Both the position numbers and the translations under genes were made by a program. 64,000 bases of DNA from Saccharopolyspora gloriosae (lineage in GTDB: Bacteria; Actinomycetota; Actinomycetes; Mycobacteriales; Pseudonocardiaceae), in contig NZ_CP059557.1 of NCBI RefSeq assembly GCF_022828475.1, positions 5,937,470-6,001,469 on the forward strand. The letters run 5' to 3'. Of this stretch, positions 17,609 to 63,985 are shown one piece after another; the stretch's first letter is position 1, and every line of letters begins with the position of its first letter. The notes under the pieces are model-generated. The model did not search any database. It worked only from the letters and a program-made list of their open reading frames with translations, and was not told where the DNA came from.

Positions 17609-18961
17609 ATGACGCAGCCACCGCCGCAGCCGCAACCCCCGTGGGGTGAGCGTCCGGTCGGCCCGCCACCGGCGTCGCAACCATTGCCGCAGGTTCCCCA
17701 GTACCAGGCTCCGGCCCAGTACCAGGGTTCGTCGCAATACCAAGGTTCGACGCAACACCAGGGTTCCGCGCAGTACCAGGGTTCGTCGCAGTACCAAGGG
17801 CCGACGCAGTACCAGAATCAGCCGCAGTACCAGGACCCTTCGGCGCAGCAGCAGGTGAACCAGCAGGCTGGGCAGGAACCGCCGCACTACCTGCCGCCGC
17901 AACTGCCGCCGCCCGCCCAGCCGCAGCAGTGGGGGGCGCCACCACCGTGGCAGCAGGGCTACAACAACCCGGCCGCTCCGCCGCCGCAGCCCCGCAAGAC
18001 CGCATCCGGAATGATCATCGCGTTGGTGATCACCGGGTTATTCCTGCTCGGCGCAGGCACCATCGGAGTGACCGCGCTGTCCCGATCCGGCAGCGACGCG
18101 TCCGACTACGAGACGCCGGTGAACGAGACCGGCGACGGTTCGGCGAACGAATCGCAGGCCCCGGCCGCACCGAACTCGTCGAACGAACCGAGCCCCAGCC
18201 CCTCGTCGAGCGCACCACCCACCGCCACGAGCAACGACTACACGCCGGCCGCACGCCCCGTCGCCGCGCTCGGCGACAACCCGATCAACATTCCCGGCAA
18301 CGGCGCCGTGAACACGCCCTGCCCGCTGCCGCCGTTCGCCACCGACACGGCCTCGCAGTCCGCGTTCTACGAAGCCGCGCTGCCCTGCCTGATGGCGATG
18401 TGGGAACCCGCGCTGCAGGAAGCCAACCTTCCCGTCCTGATGCCGGACGTGCAGACCATCGACGGCACCGTCGCAAGCCCCTGCGGCACCCGGACCTGGG
18501 ACCAGACCGCCATGTTCTGCCCCGGCAACAACACGATCTACATGACGGCGCGCTACTACGCGGACAAGGAAGGCCGCACCGACGCCGGCGTCTTCCTCGG
18601 CCAATTCGCGCACGAATTCGGGCACGCCGTTCAGAGCATGAGCGGCATCAACCAGGCCTACACGGCGGCCTCCTACGACGCGAACGGCACCAGCCCCGCC
18701 GGACTCGAACTCACGCGGCGCTCGGAGTTGCAGGCGACCTGCTACGAAGGAATGGCGTTGGCCTCGCTGCAGAACGGCGGGGTGCACAACGACATCATCT
18801 TCGCCGCCCTCACCGACTCACGAGGCCGCGGCGACGAGTACAACGCCCAACCCGACCACGGCAGCATCGCCACCAACACGGCATGGATCGACCAGGGCTT
18901 CTACAAGAACCGAGTAACCGAATGCAATACGTGGCTTGCTGTACCTGATCAGGTGGACTGA
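17609..18961 (+). CDS. Membrane-anchored neutral zinc metallopeptidase (YpfJ-like)
   Basis: A 450-residue protein. Residues 1-130 are Pro/Gln-rich with repeated QYQGS units (encoded by a degenerate tandem repeat at about 17700-17830), followed by one membrane helix at 133-155 and a Ser/Pro/Thr linker. The C-terminal domain has HEFGHAVQSMSG, the family ELQATCYEGM motif, and paired cysteines, matching the putative neutral zinc metallopeptidase family. The catalytic domain should face outside. The start has GGGAGA upstream. Its stop is 38 bp before copy A of the hairpin module. Confidence 0.9.
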   Translation: MTQPPPQPQPPWGERPVGPPPASQPLPQVPQYQAPAQYQGSSQYQGSTQHQGSAQYQGSSQYQGPTQYQNQPQYQDPSAQQQVNQQAGQEPPHYLPPQLPPPAQPQQWGAPPPWQQGYNNPAAPPPQPRKTASGMIIALVITGLFLLGAGTIGVTALSRSGSDASDYETPVNETGDGSANESQAPAAPNSSNEPSPSPSSSAPPTATSNDYTPAARPVAALGDNPINIPGNGAVNTPCPLPPFATDTASQSAFYEAALPCLMAMWEPALQEANLPVLMPDVQTIDGTVASPCGTRTWDQTAMFCPGNNTIYMTARYYADKEGRTDAGVFLGQFAHEFGHAVQSMSGINQAYTAASYDANGTSPAGLELTRRSELQATCYEGMALASLQNGGVHNDIIFAALTDSRGRGDEYNAQPDHGSIATNTAWIDQGFYKNRVTECNTWLAVPDQVD

Positions 18962-18963
18962 CG

Positions 18964-19140
18964 CCGGTCGTTTGGCTGGGGTGGTCGGGTAGCGGAACCT
19001 CAGGTGTCTTCTCGCTGCGGGATCTTTTTCCCAAGTGGCTCCGCCACGAGGGAAAAAGCTGTCCTCGCGAGAAGACACCTGAGAACCCGCCGGTGAGCGG
19101 CTTTTTGACGTGGGCTATGCGCTGACGCGCATACAGGCAC
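18964..19140 (+). repeat. Composite 3'-end hairpin module, copy A
   Basis: Begins right after the metallopeptidase stop. A perfect 17-bp stem (CTCAGGTGTCTTCTCGC at 18999-19015, complement at 19067-19083) encloses a second inverted repeat (TTTTTCCCAAGTGGC with GCCACGAGGGAAAAA). A small hairpin GCCG-GTGAG-CGGC with TTTTT follows, then GACGTGGGCTATGCGC. The sense-strand arrangement resembles a terminator. Five further copies occur in the window. Confidence 0.9.
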
Positions 19141-19805
19141 GGCTTCGCCGCAAAGCACGGCCATCGGCCGCAAAGCAAGCGGGGCTTCGCCCGCCAACTA
19201 CACGGCTTCGCCGTAAGGCACGGCCTTCGGCCGCAAGGCAAGCGGGGCTTCGCCCGCCAACTGCACGGCTTCGCCGCAAAGCACGGCCTTCGGCCGCAAA
19301 GCAAGCGGGGCTTCGCCCGCCAACTACACGGCTTCGCCGTAAGGCACGGCCTTCGGCCGCAAGGCAAGCGGGGCTTCGCCCGCCAACTGCACGGCTTCGC
19401 CGCAAAGCACGGCCTTCGGCCGCAAAGCAAGCGGGGCTTCGCCCGCCAACTACACGGCTTCGCCGTAAGGCACGGCCTTCGGCCGCAAGGCAAGCGGGGC
19501 TTCGCCCGCCAACTGCACGGCTTCGCCGCAAAGCACGGCCTTCGGCCGCAAAGCAAGCGGGGCTTCGCCCGCCAACTACACGGCTTCGCCGTAAGGCACG
19601 GCCTTCGGCCGCAAGGCAAGCGGGGCTTCGCCCGCCAACTGCACGGCTTCGCCGCAAAGCACGGCCTTCGGCCGCAAGGCAAGCGGGGCTTCGCCCGCCA
19701 ACTGCACGGCTTCGCCGCAAAGCACGGCCTTCGGCCGCAAAGCAAGCGGGGCTTTGCCCGCCCTTCGCGGGCTTCGCCGCCGAAAGCACGGCTTCGCCGT
19801 GAGGT
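19141..19805 (+). repeat. Satellite array A, 63-bp unit
   Basis: About ten 63-bp units alternate between two variants (AACTA and AACTG), giving a 126-bp higher-order period. Each unit carries three mini-hairpins with TTCG-type loops: GGCTTCGCC, GGCCTTCGGCC and GCGGGGCTTCGCCCGC. Because 63 is divisible by three, long frames stay open on both strands (230 to 327 codons); these are not genes. Confidence 0.95.
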
Positions 19806-19830
19806 AGGCGGGGCTTTGTGTGCTGGCTTG

Positions 19831-22705: not shown

Positions 22706-22744
22706 CCCACCCGCTTCACGACGAACCCGTGCCGCTGGGCTGCG

Positions 22745-22860
22745 AAGTAAGCCCGTCTCGCGGCCGAAGGCCGTGCCCTGCGGCGAAGCCGTGCCTTGCG
22801 GCCGAAGGCCGTGCCCTGCGGCGAAGCCGTGCCTTGCGGCCGAAGGCCGTGCCTGGATGT
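22745..22860 (-). repeat. Satellite array B, 38-bp unit
   Basis: About three units of 38 bp built from GGCCGAAGGCC, CGGCGAAGCCG and related small palindromes, the reverse-strand form of the mini-hairpins in array A. It precedes module copy B, so the composite is inverted relative to copy A. Confidence 0.85.
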
Positions 22861-23020
22861 GCGAAGCACATAGCCCACGTCAAAAAACCGACCACCCGCG
22901 GGTTCTCAGCTGTCTTCTCGCGAGGACAGCTTTTTCCCTCGTGGCGGAGCCACTAGGGAAAAAGATCCCGCAGCGAGAGACCAACTGAGGTTCCGCCACC
23001 CGACCACCCAAGCAAAACGA
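22855..23020 (-). repeat. Composite hairpin module, copy B (mismatched stem)
   Basis: Inverted copy. Arms are CTCAGCTGTCTTCTCGC (22905-22921) and GCGAGAGACCAACTGAG (22973-22989), which leave four mismatches, unlike the other five copies. The inner TTTTTCCC repeat and T-run are intact. The stem ends 36 bp from the stop of the minus-strand gene at 23025. The arms look like a join of two family variants. Confidence 0.85.
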
Positions 23021-23024
23021 GCCC

Positions 23025-23654
23025 TCAAGCAAGAACGTACTCATGCCAATTCATGCCGTGGGGGTTCCAGCCGAGTCCGCGGCCTTCCTTGGCCGCGCGC
23101 AGCGCCTGCATGGTGTGCGGCCAGCGGCGGATCACGTTGGCGACGGCGACGGGGGTCATCAGTTCGCTGGTGCGGCGGTGGTTTCCCGGCCCCAGGAACG
23201 CGATTCCGCCTGGTGTGGACAGGATGTCGGTGAGCGGCATCTGCCCGGACAGCGTGGTCTTCTCCACGCTGATCAGGGTGTTGGGGTGCAGGTCCGGTGG
23301 CCAGGTGCGGCGGTCGAGGTCGGCGGCGACGGGCTGGTCGCAGTTGCCGCAGCGGCAGTCGAACTCACCGGCCCAGCCGTGTTTCGCCCAGGACCACACG
23401 ACGCCGCCGCCCGCGTCCAGGTCGGACAGCGCGGCCACGTGCGGCCAGGCTCCGACGACGGCGCTGAGCATGGTGCGCTTGGTGGGCCGGGTGTCACCGT
23501 CCGGTCCGGTGAACGACCAGGTGCCCCCGTCGTCGCGGTGCACGCGGACCAGTGGCGCGCGCAGCGACAGCACGTCGGTGTCCACGAGCACTTCGGCCTC
23601 GGGCGGGGTGTTGAGTTTCCACTCCGTGTTCTGCTCCATCCCGAGCATGGTCAT
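23025..23654 (-). CDS. Hypothetical protein with CxCxxC motif
   Basis: A 209-residue soluble protein with no family I recognise. Mid-protein is a compact cysteine group (FDCRCGNCDQ) and several Trp-rich stretches (VVWSWAKHGWAGEF, WNPHGMNWHEYV). The N-terminal third has a strand pattern (VDTDVLSLRAPLVRVHRDDGG). Start could be ATG 23654 or 23639; neither has a strong ribosome-binding site. It lies downstream of adnB on the same strand and its stop faces module copy B. Confidence 0.65.
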   Translation of the reverse strand: MTMLGMEQNTEWKLNTPPEAEVLVDTDVLSLRAPLVRVHRDDGGTWSFTGPDGDTRPTKRTMLSAVVGAWPHVAALSDLDAGGGVVWSWAKHGWAGEFDCRCGNCDQPVAADLDRRTWPPDLHPNTLISVEKTTLSGQMPLTDILSTPGGIAFLGPGNHRRTSELMTPVAVANVIRRWPHTMQALRAAKEGRGLGWNPHGMNWHEYVLA

Positions 23655-33177: not shown

Positions 33178-34176
33178 GTGGGCAAGCTCCGCAAGAACAT
33201 GCTCACCCTGGCCGGCACCGGTGCCGCCGTCGCCTGCGCGGCCACCCTGACCGCCGTTCCCGCGCTGAGCGCCAACAACGACGCCGCCCCCAAAGCCGAG
33301 AGCCCCGTCGCGGCCTCGCCGTACCTCTACAACGGCTGGGGCAACCCGCCGGCGCCGAGCGAGGTGCAGAACGCCGCCGGCGTCAAGGACTTCACGCTCG
33401 CGTTCATCAACGCCGACGGCACCTGCAACCCGGCGTGGGACGGCACCCGTCCGCTGGACGGCCAGGACAAGGCCACCATCGACGAGATCCGCGCCGGCGG
33501 CGGCGACGTGATCCCCTCGATCGGCGGCTGGAGCGGCAACAAGCTCGGCGAGGTCTGCACCGACGCGCAGTCCCTCGCGGGCGCCTACCAGAAGGTGATC
33601 GACGCGTACGGCCTCACGGCCATCGACATCGACATCGAATCCACCGAATTCGAGACCCCCGCCTCACGAGACCGCGTGATCGAGGCCCTGAAGATCACGA
33701 AGGAGGCCAACCCCGGCATCAAGACCGTGGTCACCTTCGGCACCACGACCACCGGGCCGAACGAGAACGGCAAGGCCATGCTCGCCAAGGCCGCCGAGGT
33801 CGGCGCCGACATCGACGTGTGGACCCAGATGCCGTTCGACTTCAACGGCACCGACATGGCCCAGGACACGATCAACACCACCGACGCGCTGAAAGAACAG
33901 GTCAAGACGACCTTCGGCTACGACGACGCGGCGGCCTACGCGCACGTCGGCATCTCCTCGATGAACGGCAACACCGACGTCGAAGGCGAGCACGTCGACG
34001 TGGCCGCGTTCCAGAAGATGGCCGACTATGCCAAGGAGAAGGGCCTCGGCCGGTTCACCTTCTGGTCGGTCAACCGCGACCGCCCCTGCGACGGCGGCGG
34101 CGACGTCAGCAGCTGCAGCGGCGCCGAGCAGCAGCCCTGGGAGTTCTCCTCCATCGTTGCTGGGTTTGCTGGCTGA
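33178..34176 (+). CDS. Secreted GH18-family chitinase-like protein
   Basis: A 332-residue secreted protein. GAAGGAGG precedes GTG 33178; the signal peptide is residues 1-30 with a cleavage-like end VPALSAN. The GH18 barrel is indicated by [11 protein letters not shown] (strand 3) and the catalytic strand IDIDIEST, in which the DxE pair is intact; the first Asp of canonical DxxDxDxE is Thr. [12 protein letters not shown] and [12 protein letters not shown] are the later barrel strands. No carbohydrate-binding domain is seen. Predicted to hydrolyse chitin or related beta-1,4-GlcNAc polymers outside the cell. The stop is 40 bp before module copy C. Confidence 0.88.
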
Positions 34177-34180
34177 GTCT

Positions 34181-34355
34181 CCGGTCGGTTTGCTTTGGTG
34201 GTCGGGTGGCGGAACCTCAGTTGGTCTCTCGCTGCGGGATCTTTTTCCCAAGTGGCTCCGCCACGAGGGAAAAAGCTGTCCTCGCGAGAGACCAACTGAG
34301 AACCCGCCGGTGGTCGGCTTTGTGACGTGGGCTATGCGCTGACGCGCATCCAGGC
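34181..34355 (+). repeat. Composite hairpin module, copy C
   Basis: A perfect 17-bp stem CTCAGTTGGTCTCTCGC (34216-34232) with its complement (34284-34300), inner TTTTTCCCAAGTGGC repeat, then GCCG-GTGGT-CGGC-TTTGTG and the GACGTGGGCTATGCGC segment. Same orientation as copy A, starting immediately after the GH18 stop. Confidence 0.9.
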
Positions 34356-34700
34356 ACGGCTTCGCCGCAAGGCACGGCTTGCTTCGCTGCCGCACGGCAC
34401 GGCCTTCGGCCGCAAGGCACGGCTTGCTTCGCTGCCGCACGGCACGGCCTTCGGCCGCAAAGCACGGCTTGCTTCGCTGCCGCACGGCACGGCCTTCGGC
34501 CGCAAAGCACGGCTTGCTTCGCTGCCGCACGGCACGGCCTTCGGCCGCAAAGCACGGCTTGCTTCGCTGCCGCACGGCACGGCCTTCGGCCGCGAGGCAA
34601 GCGGGGCTTCGCCCGCCGACTGCACGGATTCGCCGCAGGGCACGGCCTTTGGCCGCTGGGATTGGGCTTCGCCGCGAGGCGCGGCCTTCGGCGGGAGGCG
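34356..34700 (+). repeat. Satellite array C, 45-bp unit
   Basis: Five 45-bp units made of CGGCTTGCTTCGCTGCCG and CGGCCTTCGGCCG hairpins, followed by diverged units (GCGGGGCTTCGCCCGC). The 45-bp period keeps several false frames open on both strands, one reading RKARLASLPHGTAFG repeatedly. Confidence 0.92.
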
Positions 34701-34808
34701 GGTGGGGCGTTGCCTGTCCTTTGTCGGAGTCGCCGTCTTACTGCGGGGGTTCGCCGCTGACGAGGCCAGGAATGGCCGAGGACACCGTTTCCAATTTCAT
34801 CTTTCGCG

Positions 34809-34850
34809 TTGCGCCGTATGTCCTAGCTATTTCTAGGGCATACGGCGCAA
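34809..34850. promoter_or_regulatory. Long near-perfect palindrome upstream of cvnA
   Basis: An 18-bp inverted repeat, TTGCGCCGTATGTCCTAG and CTAGGGCATACGGCGCAA, with one mismatch and a 6-base A+T-rich loop. It lies 231 bp before the cvnA start, in the otherwise empty 380-bp stretch between satellite C and cvnA. It could be a terminator, an operator or a separate hairpin element; no T-run follows on either strand. Confidence 0.65.
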
Positions 34851-40923: not shown

Positions 40924-41204
40924 GGCGCAGACGCTACCTCGGAGATCCCCGAATGGGGGTCAGGCACTCCGCAGATCATGACCCGAAGCGAATCGTGATC
41001 TCACGCGCACCCCGACGAACGACGACCGGCCCGACCCCCGCGAACGGGAACCGGGCCGAAATGACCACCGCACAACGCCACCACAACGCAAAACGACAAC
41101 CCATTCGCCATCCGCGCCAACAAATCCACAACCACCCTGTCAGCCGGCAGAACCGTGCCTCCGCACGGCGAAACCCACCTGCGGCAATTGCCGTCCCTTA
41201 CAAC

Positions 41205-41384
41205 CGAAGGCCACGCCTTGGGCGGCAAAGCCCGCCTGCCTCGCGGCGCAGCCACGCCTTGGGCGGCAAAGCCCGCCTGCCTCGCGGCGCAGCCACGCCT
41301 TGGGCGGCAAAGCCCGCCTGCCTCGCGGCGCAGCCACGCCTTGGGCGGCAAAGCCCGCCTGCCTTGCGGCGCAGCCGTGCTTGT
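41205..41384 (-). repeat. Satellite array D, 41-bp unit
   Basis: Four copies of a 41-bp unit containing CGCCTTGGGCGGC, AAAGCCCGCC and CTCGCGGCGC. The period is not a multiple of three, so frames rotate across the array. It precedes inverted module copy D. The 250 bp before it (40950-41200) contain no gene that I can support. Confidence 0.9.
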
Positions 41385-41552
41385 ATGCGCGCAGCGCATA
41401 GCCCACGTCGAAAAGCCGCTCACCGGCGGGTTCTCAGTGGTCTTCTCGCGAGGACAGCTTTTTCCCTCGTGGCGGAGCCACTAGGGAAAAAGATCCCGCA
41501 GCGAGAAGACCACTGAGGTTCCGCTACCCGACCACCCGAGCAAAACGACCGG
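41385..41552 (-). repeat. Composite hairpin module, copy D
   Basis: Inverted copy with a third stem variant that is perfectly paired: CTCAGTGGTCTTCTCGC (41433-41449) and its complement (41501-41517). On the minus strand the small GCCGGTGAGCGGC hairpin with TTTT follows. The stem is 40 bp downstream of the moeZ stop. Confidence 0.9.
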
Positions 41553-41556
41553 AGAC

Positions 41557-42741
41557 TCAGTAAGTAGGCAAACTGGTGTCGACTTCGTTCGCCCAGCCGA
41601 GGACGCCGCCGCCGACGTGCACTGCGTCGGCGAAGCCTGCCTTGTGCAGTGCTGCGAGGGCCTCGGCGGATCGTCCGCCCGACTTGCAGTGCAGCACGAT
41701 CTGCCGGTCTTGCGGCAGTTCGGACAGCGCCGCGCCGGACAGGATGCGGTCCTTCGGGATCAGCGTGGAGCCGTCGATCTTGACGATCTCGTACTCGTGC
41801 GGTTCCCGGACGTCGACCAGCTGGAACTTGTCGCCCCGGTCGAACTTGTCCTTGAGCTCGCGCGGCGTGATCGTGCTGTTCACCGCGGCCTGCTGCGCGT
41901 CGTCCGAGACGACCCCGCAGAACGCCTCGTAGTCGATCAGCTCGGTGATCTTGTCCGCGTTCGGGTCCTTGCGGATCTTGACCGTCCGGTAGCTCATCTC
42001 CAGCGCGTCGTAGATCATCAGCCGGCCGACGAGGGTCTCGCCGATGCCGGTGATGAGCTTGATCGCCTCGGTGGACATGATCGAACCGATGGAGGCGCAC
42101 AGCACGCCCAGCACGCCGCCTTCGGCGCAGGACGGCACCATTCCGGGCGGCGGCGGCTCCGGGTACAGGTCGCGGTAGTTCGGACCCTTCGCCTCCCAGA
42201 ACACGCTGACCTGGCCTTCGAAGCGGAAGATCGAGCCCCACACGTAGGGCTTGCCCGCCAGCACCGCGGCGTCGTTGACCAGATACCGGGTCGCGAAGTT
42301 GTCCGTGCCGTCCAGGATCAGGTCGTAGTCGGCGAAGATGCCCAGCGCGTTGTCCGTGGACAGGTACGTCTGGTGCAGGTTGACCTTGACGAACGGATTG
42401 ATCTCGGCGATCGAGTCGCGAGCCGACTCCGCCTTGGGCCTGTCCAGGTCGGACTGGCCGTGAATGACCTGCCGGTGCAGGTTCGACTCGTCGACGGCGT
42501 CGAACTCGACGATGCCGATCGTGCCGACCCCGGCCGCGGCCAGGTACAGCAGTGCCGGGCTGCCGAGCCCACCGGCACCGATCACCAGGACCTTCGCGTT
42601 CTTCAGCCGCTTCTGCCCGTCCATCCCGACATCCGGGATGATCAGGTGGCGGCTGTAGCGCGCGACCTCTTCCTTGGTCAACTCCGCCGCCGGCTCAACG
42701 AGCGGCGGTAGCGTCGTTGCCTGGGCTGAATCGCCGGACAT
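41557..42741 (-). CDS. moeZ: Molybdopterin-synthase adenylyltransferase/sulfurtransferase MoeZ
   Basis: A 394-residue fusion of an E1-like MoeB/ThiF domain and a rhodanese domain. ATP motif VIGAGGLGSPALLYL, DESNLHRQVIHG, DGTDNFATRYLVND and the PSCAEGGVLGVLC loop mark the adenylyltransferase. The rhodanese domain (about 295-390) has the active cysteine in VLHCKSGGRSAE. MoeZ adenylates and thiocarboxylates ubiquitin-like sulfur carriers for molybdopterin and thiolation of other products. GAGGAGGAG lies before ATG 42741. Position matches Rv3206c. Confidence 0.95.
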   Translation of the reverse strand: MSGDSAQATTLPPLVEPAAELTKEEVARYSRHLIIPDVGMDGQKRLKNAKVLVIGAGGLGSPALLYLAAAGVGTIGIVEFDAVDESNLHRQVIHGQSDLDRPKAESARDSIAEINPFVKVNLHQTYLSTDNALGIFADYDLILDGTDNFATRYLVNDAAVLAGKPYVWGSIFRFEGQVSVFWEAKGPNYRDLYPEPPPPGMVPSCAEGGVLGVLCASIGSIMSTEAIKLITGIGETLVGRLMIYDALEMSYRTVKIRKDPNADKITELIDYEAFCGVVSDDAQQAAVNSTITPRELKDKFDRGDKFQLVDVREPHEYEIVKIDGSTLIPKDRILSGAALSELPQDRQIVLHCKSGGRSAEALAALHKAGFADAVHVGGGVLGWANEVDTSLPTY

Positions 42742-49367: not shown

Positions 49368-49535
49368 GAGCTGCTTTGGGGTCGGGTGGCGGAACCTCAG
49401 TTGGTCTCTCGCTGCGGGATCTTTTTCCCTAGTGGCTCCGCCACGAGGGAAAAAGCTGTCCTCGCGAGAGACCAACTGAGAACCCGCCGGTGGTCGGCTT
49501 TGTGACGTGGGCTATGCGCTGACGCGCATCCAGGC
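49368..49535 (+). repeat. Composite hairpin module, copy E
   Basis: A perfect stem CTCAGTTGGTCTCTCGC (49396-49412) and complement (49464-49480), identical to copies C and F. Unlike the other copies it does not follow a stop codon: the nearest gene on its left is the 5' end of DUF3107, so its original host gene may have been lost. The CCGGTCGTTTTGCT lead-in is shortened. Confidence 0.9.
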
Positions 49536-49775
49536 ACGGCTTCGCCGCAAGGCACGGCCTTCGGCCGCGGGGCAAGCGGGGCTTTGCCCGCCCTTCGCGG
49601 GCTTCGCCGCTAAAAGGCACGGCTTCGCCGCCAGGCACGGCCTTCGGCCGCGAGGCAAGCGGGGCTTCGCCCGCCCTTCGCGGGCTTCGCCGCTAAAAGG
49701 CACGGCTTCGCCGCCAGGCACGGCCTTCGGCCGTGAGGTAGGCGGGGCTTCGCCCGCCTTTGCTCTGCTTTGCAG
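49536..49775 (+). repeat. Satellite array E, 83-bp unit
   Basis: About two and a half units of 83 bp, mixing GGCTTCGCC, GGCCTTCGGCC, GCGGGGCTTCGCCCGC and CCTTCGCGGG hairpins with a GCTAAAAGG spacer. Ends at the 3' end of the MiaE-like gene. Confidence 0.9.
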
Positions 49776-49782
49776 GTGGGTT

Positions 49783-54370: not shown

Positions 54371-54439
54371 CCAGGCCTGCGCCCCTAGGCGACGAAGCCA
54401 TCTAGCCAAGCCACAAAGGGAAGTGCCCCACCCGCCTCA

Positions 54440-54589
54440 CGACGAAGCCGTACCTCGCGGCCAAAGTCCGTGCCTCGCGGCGAAGCCGTACCTCGCGGCG
54501 AAGCCGTGCCTTGCGGCAGCGAAGCAAGCCGTGCCCTGCGGCCAAAGGCCGTGCCTCGCGGCGAAGCCGTGCCTCGCGGCGAAGCCGTG
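54440..54589 (-). repeat. Satellite array F, left part
   Basis: CGGCGAAGCCG, CGGCCAAAGGCCG and CGGCAGCGAAGCAAGCCG hairpin units, the reverse-strand form of the arrays above. The array is interrupted at 54590 by the IS21-type element and resumes at 56755. Confidence 0.9.
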
Positions 54590-54654
54590 TGTCAACTCCG
54601 GTTCAATCGTGACCCGGTTGTTCCGGGTGAATGTTGACCCACCCGGGTTGGTTG

Positions 54655-56699: not shown

Positions 56700-56754
56700 G
56701 GGTGGGTCAAAACTCGCCCGGAACCAGAGGGTCAGTCTTCAACCGGAAGCGACA

Positions 56755-56967
56755 CCGTGCCTCGCGGCTGCGAAGCAAGCCGTGCCTTGCGGCAAAGCCG
56801 TACCTCGCGGCGAAGCCGTACCTTGCGGCAGCGAAGCAAGCCGTGCCCTGCGGCCAAAGGCCGTGCCTCGCGGCGAAGCCGTGCCTCGCGGCTGCGAAGC
56901 AAGCCTGCCTTGCGGCGAAGCCGTGCAGTTGGGCTGCGAAGCAAGCCTGCCCTGCGGCGAAGCCGTG
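56755..56967 (-). repeat. Satellite array F, right part
   Basis: Continuation of array F after the insertion sequence: CTCGCGGCTGCGAAGCAAGCC units of about 35-45 bp joined to CGGCGAAGCCG hairpins. It leads into module copy F. Same reverse-strand orientation as arrays B and D. Confidence 0.9.
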
Positions 56968-57138
56968 CCTGTATGCGCGAAGCGCATAGCCCACGCCAAA
57001 AAGCCGCTCACCAGCGGGTTCTCAGTTGGTCTCTCGCGAGGACAGCTTTTTCCCTCGTGGCGGAGCCACTAGGGAAAAAGATCCCGCAGCGAGAGACCAA
57101 CTGAGGTTCCGCCACCCGACCACCAAAGAAAAACGACC
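56968..57138 (-). repeat. Composite hairpin module, copy F
   Basis: Inverted copy with perfect stem CTCAGTTGGTCTCTCGC (57021-57037) and complement (57089-57105). On the minus strand a small CCGCTGGTGAGCGG hairpin with TTTTT follows. The stem is 39 bp downstream of the stop of the membrane-protein gene at 57144. Confidence 0.9.
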
Positions 57139-57143
57139 GGCTC

Positions 57144-57677
57144 CTAGAGCCACCACCAGTACCAAAGCGCCCCGAAGACTGCGAGGAAGACGCCGAGCAG
57201 CGCCGCTGCCCCCTGTCGGTCTCGATGCCGGTCCGCGAAGGACTGCAGTCCCAGCGCCAGCACCACCCCGACCGCATGCGTGACGATCATGCTCGTGCCG
57301 GGTCCCGCCTCACCTTGGCGGGTGGACCAGATCTGCACGCCGATCAGGCCGAGGGTCACCAGCAGCAGGCCGAACGCCAGCGAACCGGTCAGGCCGCGCA
57401 GCCACGTCCCGGCCAGGGTGCCGCGCGCCGCGCCACCACGGCGGGTCGTCGGGCGTTCGTCCGGTTCCTCTTCCTGGTACCACTCGACCGACTGCCGCGG
57501 CGCGCGCGAGGAGCGGAACGGCACCGTGCCCGGTTGGTCGGCCGGAGCGTCGGCTTCCGTCCGGGTTCCGGATCCGGCGGCTCGGCGAGGCTGCCGCAGT
57601 GTCTGCGGCGGCTGCCGGTGCCGGGCGTCGGAGCTTCCGCGCGCGGCGTCCTGCGGCCCTCGTCGGGGCATGTCCAT
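57144..57677 (-). CDS. Hypothetical two-helix membrane protein
   Basis: A 177-residue protein. The first 90 residues are charged and Arg/Pro-rich (MDMPRRGPQDAARG, then SVEWYQEEEPDERPTTRRGG). Two membrane helices follow (SLAFGLLLVTLGLIGVQIW and MIVTHAVGVVLALGLQSF) and a third hydrophobic end (LLGVFLAVFGALWYWWWL). GAGGAACGAC before ATG 57677 sets the start. No known family. Downstream of the RecB-like gene by 18 bp, likely the same transcript. Confidence 0.75.
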   Translation of the reverse strand: MDMPRRGPQDAARGSSDARHRQPPQTLRQPRRAAGSGTRTEADAPADQPGTVPFRSSRAPRQSVEWYQEEEPDERPTTRRGGAARGTLAGTWLRGLTGSLAFGLLLVTLGLIGVQIWSTRQGEAGPGTSMIVTHAVGVVLALGLQSFADRHRDRQGAAALLGVFLAVFGALWYWWWL

Positions 57678-63718: not shown

Positions 63719-63985
63719 AGTGAACGGACCGTTCGTCCCATCCGGCTGGACCAACGGTCCGTTCACTCACCCCGATCACCCCCGCCAAGACACCGACGGC
63801 GAGACGGAGCACGACAACGGCTCCAAGTGAACGGACCGTTCGTCCCATCCCGCTGGACCAACGGTCCGTTCACTCACCCCGATCACCCCCGCCAAGACAC
63901 CGACGGCGAGACGGAGCACGACAACGGCTCCAAGTGAACGGACCGTTCGTCCCATCCCGCTGGACCAACGGTCCGTTCACTCACT
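63719..63985. repeat. 107-bp tandem repeat with a 15-bp hairpin in each unit
   Basis: Two full 107-bp units and the hairpin of a third (starting 63719, 63826 and 63933). Each begins with a perfect inverted repeat AGTGAACGGACCGTT and AACGGTCCGTTCACT around a 19-base loop. The remainder (CCCCGATCACCCCCGCCAAG, then AGACGGAGCACGACAACGGC) is almost identical between units. After the third hairpin the sequence diverges (CACTTCCGG) and the window ends. It may act as terminator or nucleoid element for the CAP gene. Confidence 0.9.

Follow-up and report, generated by a model that had tools for sequence, protein, structure and literature searches.

The hairpin module that recurs in the window analysed here (64,000 nucleotides of Saccharopolyspora gloriosae, from a genome, G000, of 6.88 Mb in a single contig) is, taken as a whole, best explained as the core of a short non-autonomous transposon (MITE), a reading that we consider probable. 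It goes beyond an ordinary MITE in two respects: its core is conserved and covarying, and its array-bearing form has a strand-specific footprint. A preliminary description of this DNA had suggested a mobile or recruited 3′-UTR/terminator family. Its proposal of mobility is supported by orthologous sites that are filled and empty in both directions, by inverted ends, by some short duplications, and by a resident IS5-family relative.

All six copies claimed for the window were located, with the layout as described (Table 1), and the distances between stop codon and outer stem given for the five copies with a same-strand stop (38, 36, 40, 40, and 39 nt) were confirmed. Two details of that layout stood only in part. 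The 17-bp outer stem holds for the general arrangement, but the copy at 22865 is imperfect, its two arms coming from different subfamilies; the T-run occurs in many copies of the window genome, but varies between them. The hairpin loops of the arrays that follow the modules are, on the module strand, mostly TTCG, TGCG, or TTTG, with periods of 41–83 bp, and the complementary strand presents GCGAAGC, which is an unusually stable DNA mini-hairpin. A hairpin array of similar kind, with no adjoining module, is found at 54434–54598.

Table 1. Module copies and the hairpin arrays that follow them, in positions of the window.
Feature	Position	Strand	Remarks
Module copy 1	18964..19124	+	lead-in, hairpin core, GC hairpin with T-run, GACGTGGGCTATGCGC segment; host-gene stop ends at 18961
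Array after copy 1	19125..19810	+	UUCG-type hairpin units in tandem, 63-bp period; ends approximate
Module copy 2	22865..23020	-	arms from two subfamilies; host stop at 23025
Array after copy 2	22721..22864	-	ends approximate
Module copy 3	34181..34341	+	host stop ends at 34176; orthologous gene with module in G001 and G002, without in G003 and G005
Array after copy 3	34350..34700	+	45-bp period; ends approximate
Module copy 4	41392..41552	-	host stop at 41557; orthologous gene with module in G001 and G002, without in G003 and G005
Array after copy 4	41169..41391	-	41-bp period; ends approximate
Module copy 5	49375..49521	+	flanked by two minus-strand genes; no same-strand gene upstream, no same-strand stop nearby
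Array after copy 5	49530..49780	+	83-bp period; ends approximate
Module copy 6	56981..57141	-	host stop at 57144; orthologous gene called without module in G001, G002, and G003
Array after copy 6	56749..56980	-	ends approximate

The placement beside stop codons extends well beyond the window. A 49-base core pattern, allowed up to three mismatches, has 129 matches in the genome (67 and 62 by strand), and its reversed control has none in the same 6.88 Mb. Placement was measured in 663,152 bases (9.6% of the genome, mostly around matches, together with the whole window and the final 196 kb of the contig), a sample biased towards the subtype of the window, with genes called by a simple home-made codon-usage script. 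A profile search of these bases recovered 125 copies, of which the 113 scoring above 100 bits were analysed and 12 weaker ones left out. A same-strand stop lies within 60 nt of the outer stem in 82 of the 113, at 35–46 nt in 62 of these; random intergenic position and orientation would bring 9.8% within 60 nt (P ~4e-57). The preference for the region just after stop codons, as the preliminary description had proposed it, thus held when measured on 113 copies, and placement beside stop codons in the sense orientation is real in the window genome. The remaining copies have either a same-strand stop more than 60 nt away (9 of 113) or a divergent gene upstream (22 of 113); three of these 22 are modules interrupted by an IS481-family element, and no tRNA gene was found upstream of copies without a sense gene in 18 loci. 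The IS481-family insertion sequence, about 1.1 kb long, is present three times inside modules (G000 positions 5132414, 5177317, and 5231217; L087, L088, and L089), at the identical spot in three different modules and with GGTAGC on either side, as though it targeted the module. A chromosomal polarity signal was rejected as an account of the module, the copies being balanced between the strands. Between 2.43 and 3.79 Mb of G000 no exact core match falls among the 100 matches listed, and type A copies, described below, do occur there.

Full-length copies measure about 215–230 bp and have inverted ends (GTCCTTTCAGAATGAYC). These are best seen in type A, a second, more intact subtype (5′ GTCCTTTCAGAATGACC, 3′ GATCATTCTGAAAGGACC); the array-bearing form has degenerate ends, with no clean ends or duplication. 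A search for the ends with one mismatch allowed gave matches in four of five genomes, including six pairs 214–229 bp apart as well as shorter pairs, which are deletion derivatives (L312–L315, L319); the reversed pattern gave none in the five. Type A shares its terminal inverted repeats, as similar ends, with a 908-bp insertion sequence that is present in G000 in four copies (99.9–100% identical) and whose 274-aa product is an IS5-family transposase (NF033580 of NCBIfam at 231 bits, cut-off 110; Pfam DDE_Tnp_1 and DUF4096). Groups of the IS5 family duplicate two to four bases, TNA among them. Nine copies of the insertion sequence in three genomes are flanked by TTA on both sides (seven), by TAA (one), or by a mixed pair (one), the triplet being identical in eight of the nine; the left end of the insertion sequence matches the right end of the element, and hence TTA at the former is TAA in the orientation of the latter.

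A perfect duplication is absent from most type A copies. Ten were recognised at both ends: three have an exact TNA duplication (TGA, TAA, TTA) and one a shared 5-bp TGTGA; among the remaining six, five have TAA or TGA on the left, where the right side either has none or differs. At one type A element the TGA is the stop codon of the host gene, and the orthologous site in G000 is without an element. The TNA that the insertion sequence duplicates is mostly TAA or TGA in element orientation, which is to say a stop triplet, and this would explain the orientation as well as part of the stop adjacency, as a preferred orientation on TRA would set elements on sense stops. Sense stops make up 24 of 110 CTRAG sites in non-coding or stop-codon positions, and stop adjacency is seen in 17 of 31 copies of type A, as against 82 of 113 in the main set. 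The target triplet accounts for the adjacency only in part, and the remainder may come from selection against other sites. Of 26 genomes tested, 11 have a fairly close transposase (E 1e-40 or better); none was found in G002–G005, G019, G040, and G107, which carry the element. In genera such as that of G019 the element ends differ and a matching insertion sequence was not found. From type A, and from gain and loss between species, we infer that the array-bearing form is mobile as well.

Gain and loss were followed in syntenic stretches of four genomes (G001, G002, G003, and G005) compared with G000, which gave 209 reciprocal best pairs, 189 of them at 60% identity or more. With incomplete genes dropped, 23 orthologue pairs are filled in one genome and empty in the other, 153 are empty in both, and another six are filled in both, counts that carry a caveat for one G000 gene, whose G002 orthologue, called empty, has a module about 185 nt downstream and whose G001 gap holds the module inverted. 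The 23 pairs represent 15 G000 genes, 10 filled in G000 and 5 in the other genome, and the host genes remain in place with and without the element. Next to the orthologues of the gene at window positions 23025–23654, the module, along with the sequence around it, appears to be inverted in G001 relative to G002, the two flanking genes being the same. Two genes have the module in G000, G001, and G002 with arms that differ between the species, and in G002 one and the same arm recurs at three loci; it would therefore appear that whole hairpins are overwritten among the copies of a genome.

Dispersed palindromes, sense orientation, and copies that are homogeneous inside one genome could also be produced by a REP/RAYT-type system, in which a Y1 transposase copies the hairpins, or by a reverse transcriptase that copies them as RNA. 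We consider this extremely improbable. Y1_Tnp (PF01797) has no match in G000, the sole genome tested for it (the controls were positive in 5 of 14), and the REP/RAYT model was rejected for that reason. RVT_1 (PF00078) is absent from 11 of 14 element-bearing genomes tested, G000 included, and present in 8 of the 14 genomes in which no element was detected; reverse transcription was rejected on the first of these counts.

The core has properties of its own. A perfect 17-bp outer stem is found in 98 of 112 copies despite 18 different left arms, and the predicted fold of the module is strong. RNAalifold, applied to 16 sequences from 14 genomes, gave 32 pairs, 14 of them with changes on both sides. 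An alignment of 34 sequences (33 distinct), made by sequence alone, had a covariation score of 0.317, compared with 0.090 (sd 0.007) in shuffled alignments and with at most 0.144 when the partner was slid; none of 500 shuffles reached it, a test inflated by the relatedness by descent of the sequences. The imposed inner helix is a poor fit (66% of cells), the top of the helix differing between genera. The boxes GCGGAACC, GCGGGATC, GCTGTCCTCGCG, and GAGAACCCGC are nearly invariant, and the unpaired boxes are conserved across genera. Rfam covariance models gave no match in the window at gathering thresholds, nor, with E values up to 1, in six loci taken from as many genomes, and assignment to a known RNA family was rejected. 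That the fold is kept across many genera suggests that the core may well have a job to do.

Within its actinobacterial family the core is widespread. A covariance-model search at E 1e-3 recovered it in 41 of 150 genomes (its own included) and 13 of 46 genera, with at most 24 copies per genome among the matches listed; a DNA search found the element in 18 of 100 genomes (its own included) and in none of 40 genomes from other families of the order. Exact core matches outside G000 come from Saccharopolyspora sp. NFXS83, in 21 stretches (records very near the window may be missing). The plasmid and phage collections contained no match to a query made from copy 4, and so lend no support to carriage by plasmids or phages. 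In low-copy genomes the gene upstream is gatB (G111, G138, G158, and G189), recA (G127 and G148), or another, the names gatB and recA being our reading of the translations. An insertion of about 50 bp that begins with CCCACCCGCCAGCCC lies within modules of other genera (L193, L197, L127, and L204, the last at recA) and is perhaps a second small mobile element.

The gatB site bears on whether the compensatory changes reflect selection on the fold. At this site in the four genomes six pairs are changed on both sides (four in G158 and two in G111), as many as were reached in 1 of 500 shuffles. The same matching of arms could come from palindrome-templated repair or from conversion: arms of subfamilies differ in blocks, some copies combine the arms of two subfamilies, and compensation may arise when repair of one arm uses the other arm of that hairpin as its template. 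We hold this explanation to be unlikely, given that the gatB site has single compensated pairs in genomes with one detected copy (G111, G138, and G158 have one match each in the covariance-model search) and that unpaired boxes, too, are conserved from genus to genus. The copy at gatB in G189 has three unpaired cells not found in the other gatB copies, and a second copy lies elsewhere in that genome. Compensation at gatB is not easily explained by conversion from another copy, and we read it as a probable constraint on the fold in place.

Location after stops, a strong fold, the compensatory changes at the inherited single-copy gatB site, and the T-run of many G000 copies would also be expected of a recruited 3′-UTR or terminator cassette, one retained behind stop codons for its effect in ending or stabilising transcripts and spread by recombination as helpful to the host gene. 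Several results speak against it. In 5 of the 14 comparisons listed, the inserted element still has a terminator-like hairpin downstream of it (one hairpin is common to two of the five; the remaining comparisons were not clear), and several elements sit between a stop codon and a terminator-like hairpin. The conserved T-run by which intrinsic terminators are recognised fails here, the run being variable in G000 and missing in relatives. A terminator scan of two copies placed sites only inside the hairpin and found nothing terminator-like at the tail. Moreover, 22 of the 113 copies do not follow a same-strand gene, and the spread is explained by the inverted ends and the insertion sequence. The "recruited terminator" of the preliminary description is thus not supported: the module does not appear to be a terminator family on present evidence, a role in termination being unproven, and the cassette as a whole strikes us as distinctly unlikely.

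The second feature, one of the array-bearing form, is a strand-specific footprint in the flanks of the module. In the last five codons, T occupies 36% of third positions in 73 module-bearing genes, compared with 6% in 298 genes without a module (Mann–Whitney P 6e-27). Synonymous sites in orthologues give a similar picture, with T at 31% in filled and 4% in empty genes over the last five codons, 15% and 1% over the next five, and equal values beyond ten codons. Over 110 copies the flank is A/C-rich at −90 to −70 and G/T-rich from about −65 relative to the stem, and the skew continues through the array and some 120 nt into the convergent neighbour gene. Gene ends free of modules also have a mild A/C excess (skew about −0.1), and the left side of the footprint is therefore only partly specific. 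The footprint is strongest in the array-bearing form (T at 36% in 75 genes; in relatives, 27% in 9 genes and 33% in 3 genes) and weak or mixed outside it: type A has 9% (17 genes), 24% (5 genes), and 17% (G001, 7 genes), and further values are 19% in G003 (17 genes), 7% in G018, and 11% in other genera. An origin at the replication fork was rejected, with keto skews of +0.25 and +0.27 in the two replichore classes (origin of replication assumed at contig position 1).

The footprint could be a product of selection instead of mutation. The lead-in of the module is G/T-rich, and flanks that are G/T-rich as well would avoid pairing with it, so that the hairpin folds correctly in RNA; at synonymous sites of the last five codons T stands in for G (8) besides C (17), which fits such selection. 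We think selection rather unlikely as the cause of a skew that spans the array and part of a neighbouring convergent gene and is unchanged in 19 copies without an upstream sense gene. On the mutational side, the replacement of both C and G by T would be a better fit to bypass of abasic sites, on a module strand that is single-stranded, than to plain deamination. For the core we favour a reading in which it would be a hairpin that is recognised and holds its strand in single-stranded form.

For the proposed transposon, these observations can be arranged as follows. An IS5-type transposase would move the elements in trans, inserting them at TNA in a preferred orientation, such that the duplicated triplet would usually read TAA or TGA in the direction of the element. 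The core would be recognised by a host factor, either as RNA or as a single-strand hairpin; the strand of the array-bearing form would often be single-stranded, with biased mutation and growth of hairpin arrays as the outcome; and copies in one species would overwrite one another. More far-reaching, and put forward tentatively as something we ourselves find doubtful, is the idea of a conserved structured nucleic acid of a new class, maintained family-wide for its own function, that rides the ends of successive insertion sequences onto stop triplets, and that in Saccharopolyspora is now a mobile site holding its own strand single-stranded, where hairpin arrays grow and mutation leaves a footprint that is two-sided and asymmetric between the strands. 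TNA always reads as a stop in one direction, a simple reason for a mobile element to lie on stop codons with fixed orientation. The covarying core, which has no Rfam match, extends over 13 genera of one actinobacterial family, and the inherited single-copy examples at gatB open its function to testing. If the reading of the footprint is true, sequence by itself could be enough to locate DNA that is persistently single-stranded.

Several known systems share some of these properties. MITEs driven by IS5-family elements resemble the element in being short and gene-less, with inverted ends as in a resident IS5-family element, short duplications in some copies, and many intergenic copies; the element differs in an interior that is a covarying hairpin conserved across genera, in insertion largely on stop triplets in one orientation, and in the arrays and strand footprint of one clade. 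REP/RAYT systems likewise consist of dispersed intergenic palindromes with species-specific variants; in contrast, G000 has no Y1 transposase and the element has inverted ends of DDE type. Integron attC is a structured site directly 3′ of a gene, in fixed orientation, with a stem that has an unpaired spacer and a variable top, and in all of these the element is like it; unlike attC, the element comes and goes while the host gene stays, and its copies are dispersed on both strands. Nor does the mobile unit include the upstream gene, as that of attC does, host genes being in place with and without the element. The pneumococcal BOX, RUP, and SPRITE are, like the element, small, intergenic, and mobile, with a stable fold, and differ in their hosts; to our knowledge, they have no cross-genus covarying core. 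In the accessible part of one account they are small intergenic mobile elements with stable folds, SPRITE being described as terminator-like, and stop-triplet targeting, a point of difference from the element, is not mentioned there (PMC10969869). The family itself is not described in the accessible parts of the literature searched, which included PMC3827479, PMC3610266, and PMC10969869, and this is no proof of its being unpublished.

Two further repeats were noted in the window. A strong inverted repeat, TTGCGCCGTATGTCCTAG ... CTAGGGCATACGGCGCAA, lies 3′ of the copy-3 array at 34808–34850. At 63719–63984, reaching the end of the window, a 107-bp unit that contains the palindrome AACGGACCGTT is repeated three times in tandem.
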